From Dactylosporangium sp. AC04546 (lineage in GTDB: Bacteria; Actinomycetota; Actinomycetes; Mycobacteriales; Micromonosporaceae): DNA of 64,000 bases. The first letter of the stretch is position 1; each line of letters starts with the position of its first letter. Below are positions 13,909 through 59,414 of this stretch, piece by piece. Under the pieces are notes generated by a model. It was not told the origin of the DNA and made no database searches. It was given only the letters and a program-made list of their open reading frames with translations. The DNA lies in the NCBI RefSeq assembly GCF_022095675.1, contig NZ_JAHYSG010000024.1, forward strand, positions 55,134 through 119,133. Direction: 5' to 3'. The position numbers and the translations under genes are program-made.

Positions 13909-14004
13909 GGAGGCGTTCGGGTGGCTGGTGCCCCTCCCGGTCTTCAAAACCGAGGTGGTCCGGCATCCGGGCCAGGCGGGTTCGATTCCCGTCCGCTTCC
14001 GCCA
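13909..14004 (+). tRNA. selC: tRNA-Sec (UCA anticodon)
   Basis: A 96-nt gene with an encoded CCA end. The acceptor arm GGAGGCG pairs with CGCTTCC; the D arm GGG-CCC is long; the anticodon TCA sits at 13944-13946 in loop CTTCAAA. A long variable arm (GGTCCGG..CCGGGCC) and T arm GCGGG-TTCGATT-CCCGT follow, then discriminator G and CCA. The UCA anticodon, large variable arm and extended length identify selenocysteine tRNA, which reads UGA when SelB binds a SECIS hairpin. selA and selB lie 4.7 kb downstream on the same strand, which supports the call. Confidence 0.95.
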
Positions 14005-53036: not shown

Positions 53037-55611
53037 CGTTCGCGGCCGTCCACGCCGGCGACGTCGAGGCCACCGCGGCCGCGTTCGCCGGGCTGGGCGA
53101 GGAGCGCCGGCGCGCGCTGGCCGCGGAGGTCGTCGCCGGCTTCCGGCGCCACCGCACCGAGCGATGGAACACCGGCCGGGCCACGGCGCTCGCGGTCGCC
53201 GCCGTGGGCGGACTGCCGGGCGCAGCGGCGGCGGCGGACCTGCTCACGCACCCGACGGTGTTCCCCGGCGAGAGCGCGGTCGAGCCGGTGGTCGCCGCCG
53301 CCGGCGAGCGCGGCGTCCCCTGGCTCGGCGACCTGGCGGCCCGGCTCGCGCTGCGGCTGCCGGACGTCACGTCGCGCTGGCGGTTCACCGCCGGGCTGCT
53401 GCTGAGCACGGAGGTCGCGCCGCCGCCGGGCGCCGACCGCTTCGCCGAGCAGTGGCTCGCACTCCTCGACTGGCCTATGGAGGAGGTGCGGCACATCCCG
53501 ATCGCGGATCGGCTGCGGACCGATCCGTTTCTGGCGGTACTGCTGCCGCGGTTGTTCGAGATCGACGGCATCGGCGTGCGGCTGGGGTCGGTGAACGACG
53601 ACCGGTCCGAGCGGCAGGCGATGCTGCACGCGCTGGCCCAGCTCGCCGCGGAGGGGCTGCTCGACCGGGCCGCGCTCCTCGACGGCTGCCTGGGCCGGCT
53701 CCTGCGGGGCGACCGGCCCGCCGCGGTACGCACGTTCCTGACGCTGCTCGACCTGCTCCAGCCGACGGAGGAGGAGGTCGGCCGGCGGTCCGGCGACTAC
53801 CTGCGGCTGCTCGCCGACGGCCCCGGTCCGGCCGCGGCGATGGCCCAGCGGACGCTGCGGGACCGGGCCGACCCCGATGCGGTCCTGGAGGTGTCCGCCG
53901 CCGTCCTGGCCCGACCGGAGAAGGGCGTCGTCACCGCGCAGCTGGCAATGCTGGACGCGCTCGTCCGGCGCCACCCGGAGCGGGCGCCAGAGGCGGTGGC
54001 CGTCGTCGCCGCAGCGCTCGACGCACTCCCGACTGACCTGCGCGACCGGGCGCAAGCGCTGCTCACCAAGCGCGACGTCGCCGCAATACGGCCGGCAGCC
54101 GCCGAACCACGCGGCGACGACCTGCCGCCCCGGCTCGCGCCACCGGCTCCGGCCGCGCCGATCACGAGCGCCGACGAGCTCGCGGAGGAGGTTGCCGCGC
54201 TGCCGGCCTCCCTGACAGCTCTGACGGCGGCGCCGCTGGAGCGGGTCCTGGACGGCCTGGTCCGGCTGGCGGGCACGGACCGGCCGGCGCTGGCCCGGGC
54301 CCTGGATCCGGTACTGCGGCGGCGTCGGGTCCCGGCCGGCGGCTTCGCGTGGCAGCCGATGGCGCTGGACGGTCTGCTGGGCGGGGCGCTGTATGCGGCC
54401 GCTTCGCTGTCCACGGCTCCGGGGGCTGTGGCTGCGGTGGCGGGGGCCGGTCGTTGGGTACCCGCACCGCATCGGCTGCTGCAGGCGCGGCTGGCCGAGA
54501 TCGCGGACGCCGCCGGCGACGGCTACCCCGGTCTGCTCGCCGCACCGACCTCCAGCACCGGCGCCCTCGACCCCGGCGTACTCCTCGACCGCCTGGGCGC
54601 GCTCGGCGAACGGGAGCCGTGGCCCGGGGACCTGCACCAGGCACTCCTGCGCCTTCCGGCGGTCCCCGACCCGGCCGCCGCGAAGCGCGCCGCCAAACTT
54701 CGCACCCCGGCCGGCGCCCGCGTGGCCGCCTGGCTGCGCGCCGGTGGGCTGGCCGACGTCACGACCGAGGTCGTCACTGTCCCGGGCGAGGAGTTGGTGA
54801 CCGCGTCACGCTGGGACTGGGTCCCGGAGCGGCGAACCGTCGTCCGGGTGACCGGCGGCGGGATGTTCGGTCCGTTCCGGGCGTCCGCGGTCGACCACCG
54901 CGAGTGGAGCGGGTTGTGGCCCGCGGTGCTGCCGGGCTATCGGCAGCTGGCCGCCGCGTACGCCCTGCCCGACATCGCGGCCGCCGCCGACCTCGACCGC
55001 AGGGGCGGCGCGGCGGTGCTGCCGTCGCTGGCCGACTGCACGGGCCCGGGCGGGGACGCGTTCGACCTGGTGCTCGCGTACGGCCTGGCAGCCCGCCACG
55101 ACATCGACCGCTCCGCGGCCCTCGACGCGCTGCTCGCCGTCGCGGCCGACGGGCAGCTGGACCCGCAGGGCGTCGGCCGCTGGCTCGGCGAACTGGCGGC
55201 GTCCGGGCCGCACACGCCGCCCGTTCGGACGGTCGGTCGGTCGACCGACCGAACCCACGCCACGAACCCGACGCTCGGTCGGTCGACCGACCGAACCCAC
55301 ACCACGAACCCGACGCTCGGTCGGTCGACCGACCGGCGCTGGTCCTCACCCGCGTCGTTGCGCCGCTGCGCGACGCGGCCGAGGCCGGCGCGGTGCTCAC
55401 GGTCTGGCGCCTGCTCGCCGCCGCCCTGCCGCCCCTGCTGGCCTCCACCCCGCCAACCCGCGGCACGCCCGACCTGCTGATGCTCGCCGCGCGGCTCGCC
55501 ACCGTGACCGGGGTGCGGCTGCCGGTCGCCGGCCTCGACGACGCCGCGGCCCGCGGGGGCGGGAGCCGCCTCGCCGTCGAGGCGCGCCGCCTCCGCGACG
55601 CCATCGCATAG
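53033..55611 (+). CDS. HEAT-like DUF6493-type protein, frameshifted near its 3' end
   Basis: From the GTG at 53033 one frame encodes about 740 residues of Ala/Leu-rich helical repeats (EERRRALAAEVVAGFRRHRT; GLLDRAALLDGCLGRLLRGD; PLERVLDGLVRLAGTDRPAL), resembling the uncharacterised DUF6493 group. At 55231-55335 three palindromic repeats interrupt it. After them that frame becomes shadow-like and stops at 55480, while the natural C-terminus (ALVLTRVVAPLRDAAEAGAV and LTVWRLLAAALPPLLASTPP) continues in another frame to 55611. The repeat insertion therefore broke the frame, unless slippage or assembly error explains it. Coupled to the dehydrogenase upstream. Function unknown. Confidence 0.7.
55231..55335. 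repeat. Three palindromic repeats, 42-nt period, inside a coding gene
   Basis: TCGGTCGGTCGACCGACCGA occurs at 55233-55252 and 55275-55294, and an 18-nt version at 55318-55335. The centres are exactly 42 bases apart; the linkers (AACCCACGCCACGAACCCG type) differ at one base. Each copy can form a perfect hairpin. The array looks like a REP-type insertion. Confidence 0.9.
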
Positions 55612-55612
55612 G

Positions 55613-56752
55613 GTGGGCGGCGTGCGGCGGCGGGCGCTCCTGGGGCTGTTCGGTGCGATGCTCACCGGCTGCGATGTCTCCGTCGCGGCCGCACCCGTCA
55701 GCCCGTGGAAGCTCCCGGTGGCAGCGCCGGAGCCCTGGGCGCCACCCCAAGCCGGCAACGAGGCCACGCTTCGAGCGGTGCTCCAGCGGTACCAGAACCT
55801 CTTCCCGAGCGCAGTGGTGTTCGCGGCCGTCGACGGGCACGTCGTCGCGCACTTCGCCGTCGGGGACGCGGTGCGGTACGGCGCCGAGCCCGTTCCGGCC
55901 ACGACCGGCACGCTCTACGACCTGGCGTCGCTGACCAAGGTGTTCACGGCGGTCCTGGTGCTCCGGCTGCACGAGCAGGGGGCGGTGCAGCTCGACTCGC
56001 CAGCGTATCGATTTCTACCACTGTTCAGTGGCAAGCCGGACATCACCGTCCGCATGCTGCTGACCCACACGTCCGGGCTGTCCAAGGACACGCCGCTGGC
56101 CGGCGAGACACCGGCCGAGCGGCTCGCCCACGTGCTGCGCGCGCCGCCCGTCGCCGCGCCCGGCAGCGGGTACATCTACGCGGACCAGAACTTCATCGCG
56201 CTCGGGGCGCTCGCCGAGCGGCTCGGCGGCGAGCCGCTCGACCGGCAGGTGCGGCGGCAGATCGCGGCGCCGCTGGGGATGGCCGACACCGGGTACCGGC
56301 CGCCGGCGGCGCTGCTGCCGCGCATCGCGGCGACCGAGGGCACCCTGCGCGGTACCGTGCACGACCCGTCAGCGGCGGCGTTCGGCGGGGTGGCCGGGCA
56401 CGCGGGGCTGTTCGCGACGGCGGCGGACGTGGCGCTGCTCGGCCGGGCGCTGATGACCGGCGGCCCGCTGCTGCGGCCGCCCACGATCGAGCTCATGCGC
56501 ACGAACCACAACGCCGCGTTCGGCCCGTCCGCCGCGCACGGGCTGGGCGTCGACCTCGACCAGGCGTGGTACATGGGCCGTCTGGCCGGCCACGGCGCCT
56601 TCGGCCACACCGGATTCACCGGGACGTCGATCGTCGTGGAGCCGCGCCGGCGGGTCGTGCTCGTGCTGCTCACCAACCGGGTGCACCCGAGCGCGTCCGC
56701 GCCCAGCCCCAACCCGGCCCGCAAGGCCGTCGCCGACGCGCTCGCCGCGTGA
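55613..56752 (+). CDS. Lipoprotein serine hydrolase, beta-lactamase/PBP-like fold
   Basis: 379 residues. The N-terminus (RRRALLGLFGAMLTGC) ends in a lipobox LTGC, so it should be a lipid-anchored outer-face protein. The class C beta-lactamase/DD-peptidase fold is shown by SLTK (active Ser) in LYDLASLTKVFTAVLVLRLH, YADQN in place of the YxN motif, and GHTGFTG in the KTG position, with LLTHTSGLS between. Length and motifs fit esterase or DD-peptidase-like beta-lactamase family members acting on wall or exogenous esters. The GTG at 55613 sits right after the previous stop; a GTG at 55622 is the alternative. Confidence 0.85.
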   Translation: MGGVRRRALLGLFGAMLTGCDVSVAAAPVSPWKLPVAAPEPWAPPQAGNEATLRAVLQRYQNLFPSAVVFAAVDGHVVAHFAVGDAVRYGAEPVPATTGTLYDLASLTKVFTAVLVLRLHEQGAVQLDSPAYRFLPLFSGKPDITVRMLLTHTSGLSKDTPLAGETPAERLAHVLRAPPVAAPGSGYIYADQNFIALGALAERLGGEPLDRQVRRQIAAPLGMADTGYRPPAALLPRIAATEGTLRGTVHDPSAAAFGGVAGHAGLFATAADVALLGRALMTGGPLLRPPTIELMRTNHNAAFGPSAAHGLGVDLDQAWYMGRLAGHGAFGHTGFTGTSIVVEPRRRVVLVLLTNRVHPSASAPSPNPARKAVADALAA

Positions 56753-56765
56753 GGCCCCGGTCACG

Positions 56766-56793
56766 TTGCCCGCGGCGGCCGGTGCGGTACAGT
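56766..56793 (+). promoter_or_regulatory. Promoter of the DAHP synthase leader
   Basis: TTGCCC (56766-56771), a 16-base spacer and TACAGT (56788-56793). The leader-peptide GTG begins at 56800, where transcription should start, so the leader would be translated without a 5' untranslated region. Confidence 0.6.
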
Positions 56794-56799
56794 GGCGGC

Positions 56800-56862
56800 G
56801 TGATTCGGTGGTATTGGCGCTTTACCGTGGCTCCGGGTGGAGCCGGCGGCCGTTTGCGCTGA
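56800..56862 (+). CDS. Aromatic-rich leader peptide of the DAHP synthase attenuator
   Basis: A 20-residue frame, MIRWYWRFTVAPGGAGGRLR, begins with GTG at the predicted transcription start. Residues 4-8 are W-Y-W-R-F, an extreme concentration of all three aromatic amino acids, directly ahead of the gene for the first enzyme of aromatic biosynthesis. This is what a ribosome-stalling sensor of Trp, Tyr and Phe supply would look like. Confidence 0.75.
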   Translation: MIRWYWRFTVAPGGAGGRLR

Positions 56863-56912
56863 ACGCCAGTCACCCGGAGCCAGCAAGGGCAGAGACCTCG
56901 GTCTCTGCCCTT
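56828..56912 (+). promoter_or_regulatory. Transcription attenuator structures upstream of DAHP synthase
   Basis: TGGCTCCGGGTG (56828-56839) pairs with CACCCGGAGCCA (56871-56882) in a 12-bp stem that spans the end of the leader. A terminator follows: AAGGGCAGAGAC (56885-56896), loop CTCG, GTCTCTGCCCTT (56901-56912). The first stem can extend by four pairs (56820-56823 with 56885-56888) into the terminator arm, so the two may compete. Confidence 0.7.
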
Positions 56913-56972
56913 CGTCGTGTCACACGGCGGGCTGGTTGTCCGATGAGCCCGCCGCCAACCTGGGAGGGCCTC

Positions 56973-58022
56973 ATGAACGACACCAGCAACCTGCGGGTCA
57001 CCGGCTACCGGCCGCTGGTCACGCCCCGCGAGCTCAGCGCCGAGCTGCCGATGGACGACGCACGCGCCGACCTGGTCCGCCGATCACGCGACGAGGTGCA
57101 CCGGATCGTCACCGGGCAGGACGACCGCCTGCTCGTCGTGGTCGGGCCGTGTTCCGTGCACGATCCGGTCGCGGCCGTCGACTACGCCCGCCGCCTGGCG
57201 GTCGCCGCGGAAGCGCACAGCGCCGATCTCTCCATCGTGATGCGGGTGTACTTCGAGAAGCCGCGCACGACCGTCGGCTGGAAGGGCCTCATCAACGACC
57301 CGGGGCTCGACGAGACGTTCGACGTGCCCACCGGGCTGCGGCTGGCCCGGCGGCTGCTGCTCGACGTGCTCGGACTGGGCCTGCCGGTGGGTTGCGAGTT
57401 CCTGGAGCCGACGAGCCCGCAGTACATCGCGGACGCGGTGTCGTGGGGCGCGATCGGTGCCCGTACCCCCGAGAGCCAGGTCCACCGGCAGCTCGCCTCC
57501 GGCCTGTCCATGCCCGTCGGCTTCAAGAACGGCACCGACGGCGACGTCCAGGTCGCCATCGACGGCTGCCGCACCGCGGCGAGCAAGCACGTGTTCTTCG
57601 GCGTCGACGAGGACGGCCGCGCCGCGGTCGTGTCGACGACGGGCAACCCGGACTGCCACATCATCCTGCGCGGCGCCCGCTCGGGCCCGAACTACGGCCC
57701 GGCCGACCTCCGCGACGCCCTGGCCCGCCTGGAGAAGGCGGGCATGCCGCAGCGCCTCATCGTCGACGCGAGCCACGGCAACAGCGGCAAGGACCACGTG
57801 CGCCAGGCCGGTGTCGCGGGCGAGGTGGCCGAGCAGATCGCCGCGGGCCAGGAGGGCATCGCTGGCATCATGCTGGAGAGCTTCCTGGTGGCGGGTCGCC
57901 AGGACCTGGGCGGCGACCTGACGTACGGCCAGAGCGTCACCGACGCCTGCATGTCCTGGGACACGACCGCGGGCATCCTCGACGAGCTGGCCGCCGCCGT
58001 CCGCGCCCGCCGGGCTAGCTGA
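56973..58022 (+). CDS. 3-deoxy-7-phosphoheptulonate (DAHP) synthase, class I (AroFGH type)
   Basis: 349 residues. It condenses phosphoenolpyruvate and erythrose-4-phosphate, opening the shikimate pathway. Class I alpha marks: LLVVVGPCSVHDPVAAVDYA (metal and PEP site), MRVYFEKPRTTVGWKGLIND, CEFLEPTSPQYIADAVSWGA, IGARTPESQVHRQLASGLSM, PVGFKNGTDG and IVDASHGNSGKD. Many actinomycetes rely on the unrelated class II enzyme, so an E. coli-like class I form is noteworthy. GGGAGG precedes the ATG. The aromatic leader and terminator upstream indicate attenuation by aromatic amino acids. The last eight bases overlap the convergent phosphofructokinase gene. Confidence 0.95.
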   Translation: MNDTSNLRVTGYRPLVTPRELSAELPMDDARADLVRRSRDEVHRIVTGQDDRLLVVVGPCSVHDPVAAVDYARRLAVAAEAHSADLSIVMRVYFEKPRTTVGWKGLINDPGLDETFDVPTGLRLARRLLLDVLGLGLPVGCEFLEPTSPQYIADAVSWGAIGARTPESQVHRQLASGLSMPVGFKNGTDGDVQVAIDGCRTAASKHVFFGVDEDGRAAVVSTTGNPDCHIILRGARSGPNYGPADLRDALARLEKAGMPQRLIVDASHGNSGKDHVRQAGVAGEVAEQIAAGQEGIAGIMLESFLVAGRQDLGGDLTYGQSVTDACMSWDTTAGILDELAAAVRARRAS

Positions 58023-59343
58023 ACGAGGCCGGCTGACCTGTGGCCTCCAGCACGGAGAGCCACAGGTCACCGTCCGGGTCGACCAGGTTCCGCGAGCTGA
58101 TCGCCAGCGTGATGGGCACGTGCACGAACCGCCCGCGCCAGCGGCCGACCACCATCTCGGTCCGCCCGGCCATCGCCGCGTGCACCGCGGCGTGGGCCAG
58201 GCGGATGCAGTACACGCTGTCGTACGGGTCGGCGGGGACGCTCCGGATGGTGTAACTGGGGTCGATGTACTTCAGGTTCGCCTCGACCCCCGCCGCGGCG
58301 AAGTGCTCGGCGATGCGCTGCCGCAGGTAGCGGCCGAAGTCCTCCAGCCGGACGTTGCCGGAGGCGTCGGTGCCCTTCGCGGTGAGGTACTCCTGGCCGG
58401 CGCCCTCGGCCACGACGATCATCGCGTGGCCGCGGTCGACCACCCGCCGCCGCAGGTGCTCCAGGAACCCGCCGGGGCCGTCGAGGGCGAACGGCACCTC
58501 GGGGATGAGGACGTAGTCGGCGTCGTTGTTGGCCAGCGCCGCATAGCAGGCGATGAAGCCGGAGTGCCGCCCCATCAGCTGCACCAGGCCGATCCCGTTC
58601 GGGAAGGCCGTCGCCTCCACGTGCGCCGCGCGGATCGCCTCGGTCGCCTTGCCGAAGGCGGTCTGAAAGCCGAAAGAGCGTTCGATGTACGGAATGTCGT
58701 TGTCAATGGTCTTGGGAACGCCCACGACGGCGATGCGGCGGCCCCGCTCGGCGACCACCTCGGCGATCTTCAGCGCGCCGCGCATCGAGCCGTCGCCGCC
58801 GATGACGAACAGGACGTTGATGCTCAGCTGCTCCAGGCAGTCGACGATCTCGTTCGGGTCCTGGTTGCCGCGCGAGGTCCCGAGAATCGTGCCGCCGTAC
58901 TCGTTGATGCCGCTCACGACCTCGGGCGTGAGGTCGACGACGGGCCGGCCGTAGCGCGCGGTCATCCCCTGGTAGCCGTTGCGGAAGCCGAAGATGCGGT
59001 GCACGCCGTAGTGGTTGGTGAGCTCCAGGACCAGGGCCCGGATCACGTCGTTGAGCCCCGGGCACAGCCCGCCGCAGGTGACGATCCCGACCCGGGTCTT
59101 CGACGGGTCGAAAAAGATCTTCGATCGCGGCCCGCCCGGCTCGAACCCCGGCAGCTCCGCCACCGGCACCCCGCGCGCGGCGACGAGCGACACCGTGTCG
59201 TCGAGCAGCACCCGGTCGTCCTCGTCGACGTAGTGCTGCGTGCTGCGCTGCCGCCGCAGCGCCGCCGACAGCGGCGAATCGATGCGACACTCACCGAGGG
59301 TGGTGACCTCGAGCTGCGCGCGTTCGTCGACCATGCCCGCCAT
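58015..59343 (-). CDS. 6-phosphofructokinase, ATP-dependent, long TP0108-like clade
   Basis: About 442 residues, longer than PfkA (about 320-340). The glycolytic enzyme phosphorylates fructose-6-phosphate. Motifs: VGIVTCGGLCPGLNDVIRAL, RNGYQGM, ILGTSRGNQDPNEIVDCLEQ, GGDGSMRGALKIAE and PKTIDNDIPYIERSFGFQTA, MGRHSGFIA. GGDG (not GGDD) at the phosphate site points to ATP and not pyrophosphate as donor. The roughly 70-residue N-terminal extension is typical of this clade. The start is uncertain: ATGs at 59343 and 59334 and a GTG at 59364 are in frame and none has a strong ribosome site. Confidence 0.92.
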   Translation of the reverse strand: MAGMVDERAQLEVTTLGECRIDSPLSAALRRQRSTQHYVDEDDRVLLDDTVSLVAARGVPVAELPGFEPGGPRSKIFFDPSKTRVGIVTCGGLCPGLNDVIRALVLELTNHYGVHRIFGFRNGYQGMTARYGRPVVDLTPEVVSGINEYGGTILGTSRGNQDPNEIVDCLEQLSINVLFVIGGDGSMRGALKIAEVVAERGRRIAVVGVPKTIDNDIPYIERSFGFQTAFGKATEAIRAAHVEATAFPNGIGLVQLMGRHSGFIACYAALANNDADYVLIPEVPFALDGPGGFLEHLRRRVVDRGHAMIVVAEGAGQEYLTAKGTDASGNVRLEDFGRYLRQRIAEHFAAAGVEANLKYIDPSYTIRSVPADPYDSVYCIRLAHAAVHAAMAGRTEMVVGRWRGRFVHVPITLAISSRNLVDPDGDLWLSVLEATGQPASFS

Positions 59344-59414
59344 GGTCCGCGACCGAGGTTTCACGCCGATGAAATCGCGTTGTGGCCCGGTGTGATCTGC
59401 TGGATGGTGGGCGC

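Follow-up and report, generated by a model that had tools for sequence, protein, structure and literature searches.

A leaderless aromatic leader peptide and conserved hairpins upstream of class I DAHP synthase genes of actinobacteria: a probable attenuator-like element

Is the class I DAHP synthase gene of Dactylosporangium sp. AC04546 controlled by an attenuator that reads the supply of aromatic amino acids? The gene lies in a stretch of 64,000 nucleotides, called the window below. The original prediction, made from the letters of the window, placed a promoter, a GTG-opened peptide of 20 codons with Trp4, Tyr5, Trp6 and Phe8, a 12-bp stem and a 12-bp hairpin with a CTCG loop ahead of it. The parts considered here are listed by window position and strand.

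56766..56793, +: promoter, with a weak -35-like element TTGCCC (56766-56771) and a -10 element TACAGT (56788-56793); predicted start point at or adjoining the GTG
56800..56862, +: leader ORF, VIRWYWRFTVAPGGAGGRLR, 20 codons from GTG (56800-56802) to the stop codon TGA (56860-56862); the GTG is the presumed first transcript base
56809..56823, +: control codons Trp4 TGG, Tyr5 TAT, Trp6 TGG, (Arg7) and Phe8 TTT, from conservation and codon bias
56828..56839, +: arm 1 of the long stem, TGGCTCCGGGTG, within the leader ORF; covariation
56829..56844, +: small local hairpin GGCTCC-GGGT-GGAGCC, which shares arm 1; candidate pause hairpin
56871..56882, +: arm 3 of the long stem, CACCCGGAGCCA, ending 2 nt 5' of the terminator hairpin
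56885..56912, +: terminator-like hairpin AAGGGCAGAGAC-CTCG-GTCTCTGCCCTT, arms 56885-56896/56901-56912; weak U-tract; covariation
56925..56954, +: third hairpin, CGGCGGGCT / AGCCCGCCG, from the stem list, immediately 5' of the ribosome-binding site
56962..56968, +: Shine-Dalgarno-like GGGAGGG of the DAHP synthase gene, from sequence
56973..58022, +: class I DAHP synthase (aroFGH type), ATG at 56973; TIGR00034

The peptide with its four aromatic residues was confirmed in the bases, and both the long stem (56828-56839/56871-56882) and the terminator hairpin (56885-56896/56901-56912) pair at 12 of 12 positions, exactly as predicted. Folding of the 121-base leader gave a z-score of -4.56, and none of 200 shuffles folded as well. 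The product of 56973-58022 scores 505 bits with TIGR00034 (aroFGH; cut-off 173.2), in agreement with the predicted enzyme, and it is the sole match to Pfam DAHP_synth_1 in the genome. One type II enzyme is encoded elsewhere in the genome; no separate short aromatic ORF was found in the ~180 bases upstream of it. At the gathering score of Rfam 15, none of 20 relatives' loci gave a match and the only one in the window was a distant tRNA-Sec gene (13909-14000, +; RF01852, 74.2 bits), the presence of which means that the genome can probably make selenoproteins. As further observations on the window, the 3' ends of the DAHP synthase gene and of a convergent ORF (58015-59364, -) share a few bases (58015-58022), and a tandem repeat at 55228-55335 (period 42, 2.6 copies, 96% match) lies within a long ORF and reads in one frame as a repeated RSVDRPN.HEPDA-like segment.

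Relatives were collected from (i) a family search with the DAHP synthase protein in 300 genomes, of which 269 matched at E <= 1e-30 and 30 loci were used, (ii) named genome contigs, where the best 80 of at least 588 related stretches were taken and (iii) 40 further upstream stretches of family members, hand-chosen across genera among the matches listed. This sample is neither random nor even, the named loci being those of highest similarity and the hand picks leaning to diversity. It contained 104 actinobacterial loci, that is, 102 distinct upstream regions, two genomes being present twice; the loci carried 94 leaders, or 92 after identical upstream regions were merged. As a separate observation, one in-frame TGA occurs in the DAHP synthase matches of two sets of genomes, G018, G052, G072, G088, G101 and G110, and G031, G057, G091, G103 and G112; it is common to members of two genera and may be near the match end.

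A short aromatic ORF with a TANNNT -10 element just before its start was present in 92 of the 102 distinct actinobacterial upstream regions, versus 1 of 2,040 shuffles of those regions; the predicted link between leader and gene is thus backed by comparison. Named genera with the leader include Streptomyces (one strain), Catellatospora, Mycobacterium, Glycomyces, Williamsia, Dietzia, Amycolatopsis, Pseudonocardia, Isoptericola, Rhodococcus, Nocardia, Paractinoplanes, Gordonia, Arthrobacter and Kribbella, among others. No leader was counted in 10 of the 102 regions: L035 and L048 (both Nocardiopsis), L039 and L052 (both MAGs), L058, the four Bifidobacteriaceae L067, L075, L083 and L100, and L123. 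L048 has a chance ORF and no hairpin, and was excluded from all structure tests. L039 retains YWRF and an arm, and its early stop codon has apparently been lost.

The TANNNT element was found in all 92 distinct leaders, its last T lying 7–9 nt 5' of the start codon (6–8 nt between). The 92 leaders were first collected without requiring it; its expectation is 2.7% per random position, to be read with the fact that a leader offers one to several candidate start codons. TACAGT in the window fits the pattern, and the -35 element TTGCCC is poor. A sigma-70 consensus scan of 56600-57050 found no promoter, and a consensus terminator scan did not detect the terminator hairpin; both silences follow from the poor -35 element and from the tail TTCGTCGTGT. 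From the conserved -10 we infer that the transcript starts at the GTG: the predicted start point corresponds to a leaderless geometry kept in 92/92 leaders, in spite of the negative sigma-70 scan.

The encoded peptides have 15–26 codons, with variable length and N-terminal part. Tyr occurs in 92/92 of them, Phe in 91/92, Trp in 83/92 and all three in 82/92. The prediction that the leader reads all three aromatic amino acids therefore holds for most leaders but not within the window's own genus, where Tyr5 and Phe8 are kept in 7/7 and Trp4 with Trp6 in 2/7 (L002 and L003), the leaders beginning VIRWYWRF, VIRWYWRF, VILDYQRF, VILDYRRF, VMQGYRRF, VLLGYRAF and VMLGYRRF. Because Trp is present in 2/7 and Tyr and Phe in 7/7, Trp appears to be optional; as a required sensed residue it is ruled out by the same count. 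In the alignment of relatives, Tyr, Phe and both stems are kept, whereas the expected WYW is restricted to 2/7 of the genus. The locus thus has a short ORF with end-product codons between promoter and gene, and its control codons and stems are kept in relatives save for Trp in its own genus.

Conservation of the stems was analysed in hand-picked alignments, A1 with 44 rows and A3 with 24 rows, from which near-duplicates and Rhodococcus-type leaders are absent; L025 and L003 were omitted from A2. Across the 44 sequences of A1, 96.2% of cells in the long stem and terminator hairpin are paired and 12 of the 24 pairs are changed on both sides, 7 of the 12 pairs of the terminator hairpin taken alone among them. 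None of 500 shuffles was as high on four measures and 1/500 on a fifth; slid versions of the structure were at most 47.8% paired. Both stems of the original prediction are therefore not only exact in the window but covarying in relatives. The small hairpin (56829-56844) is paired in 100% of cells in 42 sequences, and 1 of its 6 pairs shows a two-sided change. An outer pairing that involves the stop-codon region (56814-56820/56856-56862) is paired in 93.5% of cells with 0 pairs changed on both sides, and is unproven. RNAalifold run without a given structure returned only pairs of the long stem and the terminator hairpin (20 pairs), both together.

A covariance model, R1, whose scope is the YxRF subtype only, gave one strong match in the genome itself (3.6e-34; the next was 0.23). 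Within the class it matched 68 of 394 genomes at E <= 0.01, the own genome included and the last matches being weak, and DAHP synthase was adjacent at all of the 30 best loci, the window's included. In a second subtype, YRWF/FYWF (A3), the arms occupy the same places with a different sequence, and RNAalifold on A3 chose arm 3 with a later segment and not the leader arm with arm 3. When leaders were tested singly, pairing of arm 3 with the leader arm was significant (p <= 0.05) in 84/88 and 85/88 (two tests), and pairing of arm 3 with a segment 3' of the terminator in 43/88 and 40/88 (two tests), as in L118 (CGAGCCGGCTG with CAGCCGGCTCG). L118, L120, L127, L146 and others carry a further arm copy, AGCCGGCTC, after the terminator that can pair with arm 3. 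In the window, pairing of arm 3 with the post-terminator segment was not significant (p 0.71 and 0.77).

In sum, the observation is real and conserved: comparison of the upstream regions shows that the putative -10 element, the Tyr and Phe codons, the long stem and the terminator-like hairpin are kept ahead of the gene across many actinobacteria.

Codon choice is the most surprising feature. At the 52 loci with a full gene (two genomes, L018/L036 and L023/L033, being counted twice), TAT:TAC is 52:3 and TTT:TTC 53:9 in the leaders, versus 1:273 and 1:350 in the downstream DAHP synthase genes (Fisher p ~1e-55 for Tyr and likewise for Phe, values not corrected for kinship). Leader codons end in U or A more often than those of the gene throughout, most strongly at Tyr and Phe: 4/96 Tyr codons and 12/108 Phe codons have G or C in third position, versus 82/96 of those between the two, 198/321 of those before, 774/1108 of those after and 92.6% in the gene. 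With third-position GC so much lower at Tyr and Phe, a general AU-richness does not account for these codons. It is conceivable that they are kept solely because their bases have to stay unpaired or to pair, and not for slow reading; codon 6, which is mainly TGG, CAG or CGG and so preserves the outer pairing with the stop-codon region, speaks for such a role. However, the neighbouring codons between and before Tyr and Phe are less often U- or A-ending (the 82/96 and 198/321 just given), the outer pairing has no pair changed on both sides, and the bias is found in both subtypes despite different flanks (TAT in 44/44 rows of A1, TTT in 24/24 rows of A3). A purely structural reason, which would be compatible with the other explanations discussed here, therefore seems doubtful to us; slow wobble reading may be the reason for TAT and TTT. 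Tyr and Phe are presumably each served by a single tRNA. If so, isoacceptor charging cannot apply, and the switch to TAT/TTT would have to rest on wobble or another codon property. This near-total switch makes the leaders a sharp test of attenuator codon choice, which in E. coli has been explained by selective charging of different isoacceptors, according to the part of PMC1183508 that was available.

How could a paused ribosome alter the RNA structure? The first base of the last Phe codon precedes arm 1 (GGCTCC) by 8 nt in the window and in 78 of the 94 leaders; other spacings are 5 in 9 leaders and 11 in 4, with no value in 3. The spacing of 5 appears to arise because the search word starts earlier; in the three of these nine entries that were viewed, the stem begins at 8. 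With the usual ribosome footprint as the basis for which leader bases a stalled ribosome covers, a ribosome at Phe8 would cover the first bases of arm 1 and a ribosome at Tyr5 would leave arm 1 free. The original prediction had assumed instead that a stall at codons 4–8 favours the long stem, which, extended by four pairs into the terminator arm, would permit read-through. The four pairs (CUUU 56820-56823 with AAGG 56885-56888) do exist on paper, and a longer extension can be drawn in the Catellatospora-type L010, albeit without significance (p 0.71). However, their leader half is the last base of codon 7 plus codon 8, so that CUUU lies inside a ribosome stalled at codons 5–8 and is not free to form the extension. 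With the ribosome at Phe8, moreover, the first bases of the long stem would be covered, and the stem would not be favoured. Pairing of the leader with the terminator 5' arm exceeded shuffles (p <= 0.05) in just 11/87 or 6/87 leaders (two tests; window p 0.76 and 0.61), consensus folding has both stems together, and the terminator 5' arm is free under a Tyr stall (0.04 paired). The read-through logic of the original prediction thus fails and a switch of this kind is very improbable: as an antiterminator, the four-pair extension is ruled out, its leader half being under the ribosome and the long stem being compatible with the terminator.

Other pairings were likewise rejected as a general switch, namely the leader with the terminator 3' arm (p <= 0.05 in 12/87; window p 0.15) and the post-terminator segment with the leader (6/88), the 3' arm (3/85) or the 5' arm (0/85). 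In the window's lineage no antiterminator above chance was found by two shuffle tests, and in the window itself none was found that would be exclusive with the terminator and favoured by a stall. Folding of the 94 leaders in different ribosome states (in L007, L140, L141 and L144 the ORF was set by hand to the conserved motif) gave mean upstream pairing of the terminator 5' arm of 0.22 when the ribosome stood at Tyr, 0.43 when it stood at Phe, 0.45 when it had reached the stop codon and 0.62 in its absence; the corresponding values for the window are 0.04, 0.48, 0.49 and 0.81. Pairing at Phe exceeded that at the stop codon by >0.2 in just 4/94 and pairing at Tyr exceeded it in 7/94, and the ribosome-free state exceeded the Phe state in 48/94. 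On simple thermodynamics, most of the family is therefore not expected to switch upon starvation, and for these leaders such folding fails as proof of a switch.

A few Actinoplanes-type relatives behave differently in the models. In L119, L127 and L150 a leader segment can form 10 bp with the terminator base, and L151 joins them by p value. In L150 the predicted pairing of the terminator 5' arm is 0.99 for a ribosome at Phe, compared with 0.48 for one at the stop codon and 0.07 for one at Tyr; in L051, L122, L127, L129, L131 and L151 the gain under a Phe stall is slight (0.60–0.77 vs 0.48–0.53 at the stop codon). The values for L119 were obtained with an earlier Phe as the stall position and thus say nothing about the last one. 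Pairing as modelled in the Actinoplanes-type leaders would amount to classical attenuation in which the Phe codon decides.

Whether the hairpin next to the gene ends transcription by itself bears directly on the mode of control. As an intrinsic terminator, the window's element presents a strong, covarying 12-bp hairpin, a weak U-tract in its tail TTCGTCGTGT (TT, then CGTCGTGT) and a negative consensus scan. Leader control might instead proceed via translation coupling, Rho or RNA decay, the hairpins acting on ribosome loading or RNA stability. Consistent with this are the window's want of a consensus terminator and of an above-chance antiterminator, the ribosome-state folding that gives no switch in most of the family, and the alternative pairing of arm 3 with a segment 3' of the terminator in 43/88 leaders. 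It also agrees with the Rhodococcus/Nocardia/Amycolatopsis-type leaders (L040, L043-L045, L047, L050, L054, L057, L113 and L114), whose hairpin GAGCCGG/CCGGCTC has almost no U-tract; for that reason, control in this group may not be intrinsic termination. Conversely, Micromonospora- and Actinoplanes-type relatives have U-richer tails on the same hairpin, at least three T in 8 nt are present in 77 of the 92 tails (a figure raised by a hairpin finder that itself favoured T-rich tails), and in the window the pairing between arm 3 and the later segment lacks significance (p 0.71). On this evidence we judge control without intrinsic termination to be unlikely.

The reading that we prefer, and consider fairly likely on the comparative evidence, is that a leaderless leader peptide and its hairpins set the level of class I DAHP synthase according to aromatic supply, Tyr and Phe foremost. 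With enough charged tRNA, the ribosome would reach the stop codon, the long hairpin and the terminator would form, and most transcripts would end. With Phe-tRNA (or Tyr-tRNA) in short supply, the ribosome would pause at the U-ending codons; if it did so at Phe8, which lies 8 nt from arm 1, it would mask the beginning of that arm and open the long hairpin, so that the polymerase might continue. In a few Actinoplanes-type relatives the freed RNA could form a true antiterminator. The element thus probably acts in the manner of a ribosome-mediated attenuator; that it belongs to the classical attenuators in the strict sense is not established for the window's lineage, because the antiterminator test failed there. 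The alternative that the peptide or a short terminated RNA acts in trans, attenuation being secondary, has a precedent in peTrpL/rnTrpL of Sinorhizobium, such dual use being reported in the accessible parts of PMC10117765 and PMC7298713. Here, however, the peptide after Phe follows the RNA stems (APGG corresponds to arm 1 plus loop) and its N-terminal part and length vary (15–26 codons), and we consider action in trans extremely unlikely.

Taken together, these elements allow a wider reading of control by the leader, which we offer tentatively and at clearly less than even confidence. Class I DAHP synthase across much of the actinobacteria would be under one old leaderless aromatic sensor. Its control codons would be the wobble-read TAT and TTT, which are near-absent in these genes, so that one tRNA species per amino acid would give both a normal and a hypersensitive reading. 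The RNA switch would be of unusual build, a single arm that touches the terminator alternating between the leader arm as partner and, in many species, one located downstream, and the window's lineage would lack a classical antiterminator. Apart from this wider reading, the preferred one would extend leader-peptide control of the first aromatic step from one studied corynebacterium to most actinobacterial loci examined, many of them from groups known for natural products.

Does the arrangement occur outside the actinobacteria? At 21 of 46 non-actinobacterial loci a script detected an aromatic leader and, after it, a hairpin whose tail is T-rich; L076 and L077 were added by eye. Leader-bearing Proteobacteria include Burkholderia, Xanthomonas, rhizobia and others (loci L070, L074, L078, L084-L086, L088, L096, L099, L107-L109 and L111 among them; a Polyangiaceae MAG, L087, is a weaker case), the gene downstream of each leader being class I DAHP synthase. 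The leaders contain, for instance, MSAKFYFYFFWHLRPLADREG (Burkholderiales), SFYFWYYGF (Xanthomonas), and SYFWYFS and YWYFS (rhizobia and relatives). No Rfam match to non-actinobacterial leaders was obtained among the 20 loci scanned. These leaders resemble that of the window in the order of aromatic leader, terminator and class I DAHP synthase gene; they differ in that the tails mostly have long T runs (at least three T in 8 nt being present by construction of the search) and in that the leader pairs directly with a terminator arm, with at least 7 adjacent pairs in 16/21, a count made without shuffle control. The leader principle recurs at the DAHP synthase gene, and the Proteobacterial leaders are analogous.

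How, finally, does the element compare with known systems? The literature on these was available in part, and the statements below apply to the parts covered. In S. coelicolor, the regulation of ilvB and leuA was described as not attenuation in the strict sense (PMC1262725), which counts against the attenuation reading, and the same source gives no conserved structures in actinobacteria for amino acid pathways beyond Trp, Cys and Leu, plus ileS T-boxes. The C. diphtheriae leaders in PMC5784534 are trp, ilvB and leu, and a term search in the text portions of PMC2965389 and PMC10117765 returned no DAHP entry. From an older database, PMC1173090 reports putative attenuators before operons starting with DAHP synthase (aroAI) in Vibrio and some other bacteria, and leader peptides go unmentioned for these operons in the passages covered. 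The enteric trp and pheA attenuators (trpL and pheL, named in the covered part of PMC11802643) share with the window a leader ORF with control codons, hairpins and a terminator before the gene; in contrast, the ORF in the window has a leaderless start, two to three amino acids would be read at once, and a terminator-overlapping antiterminator is not demonstrable in its lineage. Closer in promoter architecture are trpL1, leuL and ilvL of Streptomyces lividans, which have a leaderless ORF at the transcript start and a TANNNT -10 element, although of the eight leaders counted there none is named ahead of DAHP synthase in the sections available (PMC8079986). Within the literature covered, which did not extend to the original aroR-aroF study, aroR-aroF of C. 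glutamicum, the nearest known counterpart, is the sole leader peptide named for DAHP synthase (PMC11802643, PMC4046766, PMC7356990 and PMC3890552), and the covered passages on it make no mention of spread across the phylum, codon bias or stem covariation. Its residues are Phe-Tyr-Phe versus Trp-Tyr-Trp-Arg-Phe here, a comparison by description and not by RNA sequence. According to a review, transcription of aroF in C. glutamicum rises under Phe limitation and is unaffected by Tyr availability (PMC11802643, in the part covered), with which the Phe-decisive reading of the Actinoplanes-type leaders agrees. What aroR-aroF and the window have in common is a short aromatic leader peptide 5' of a DAHP synthase gene in an actinobacterial host.
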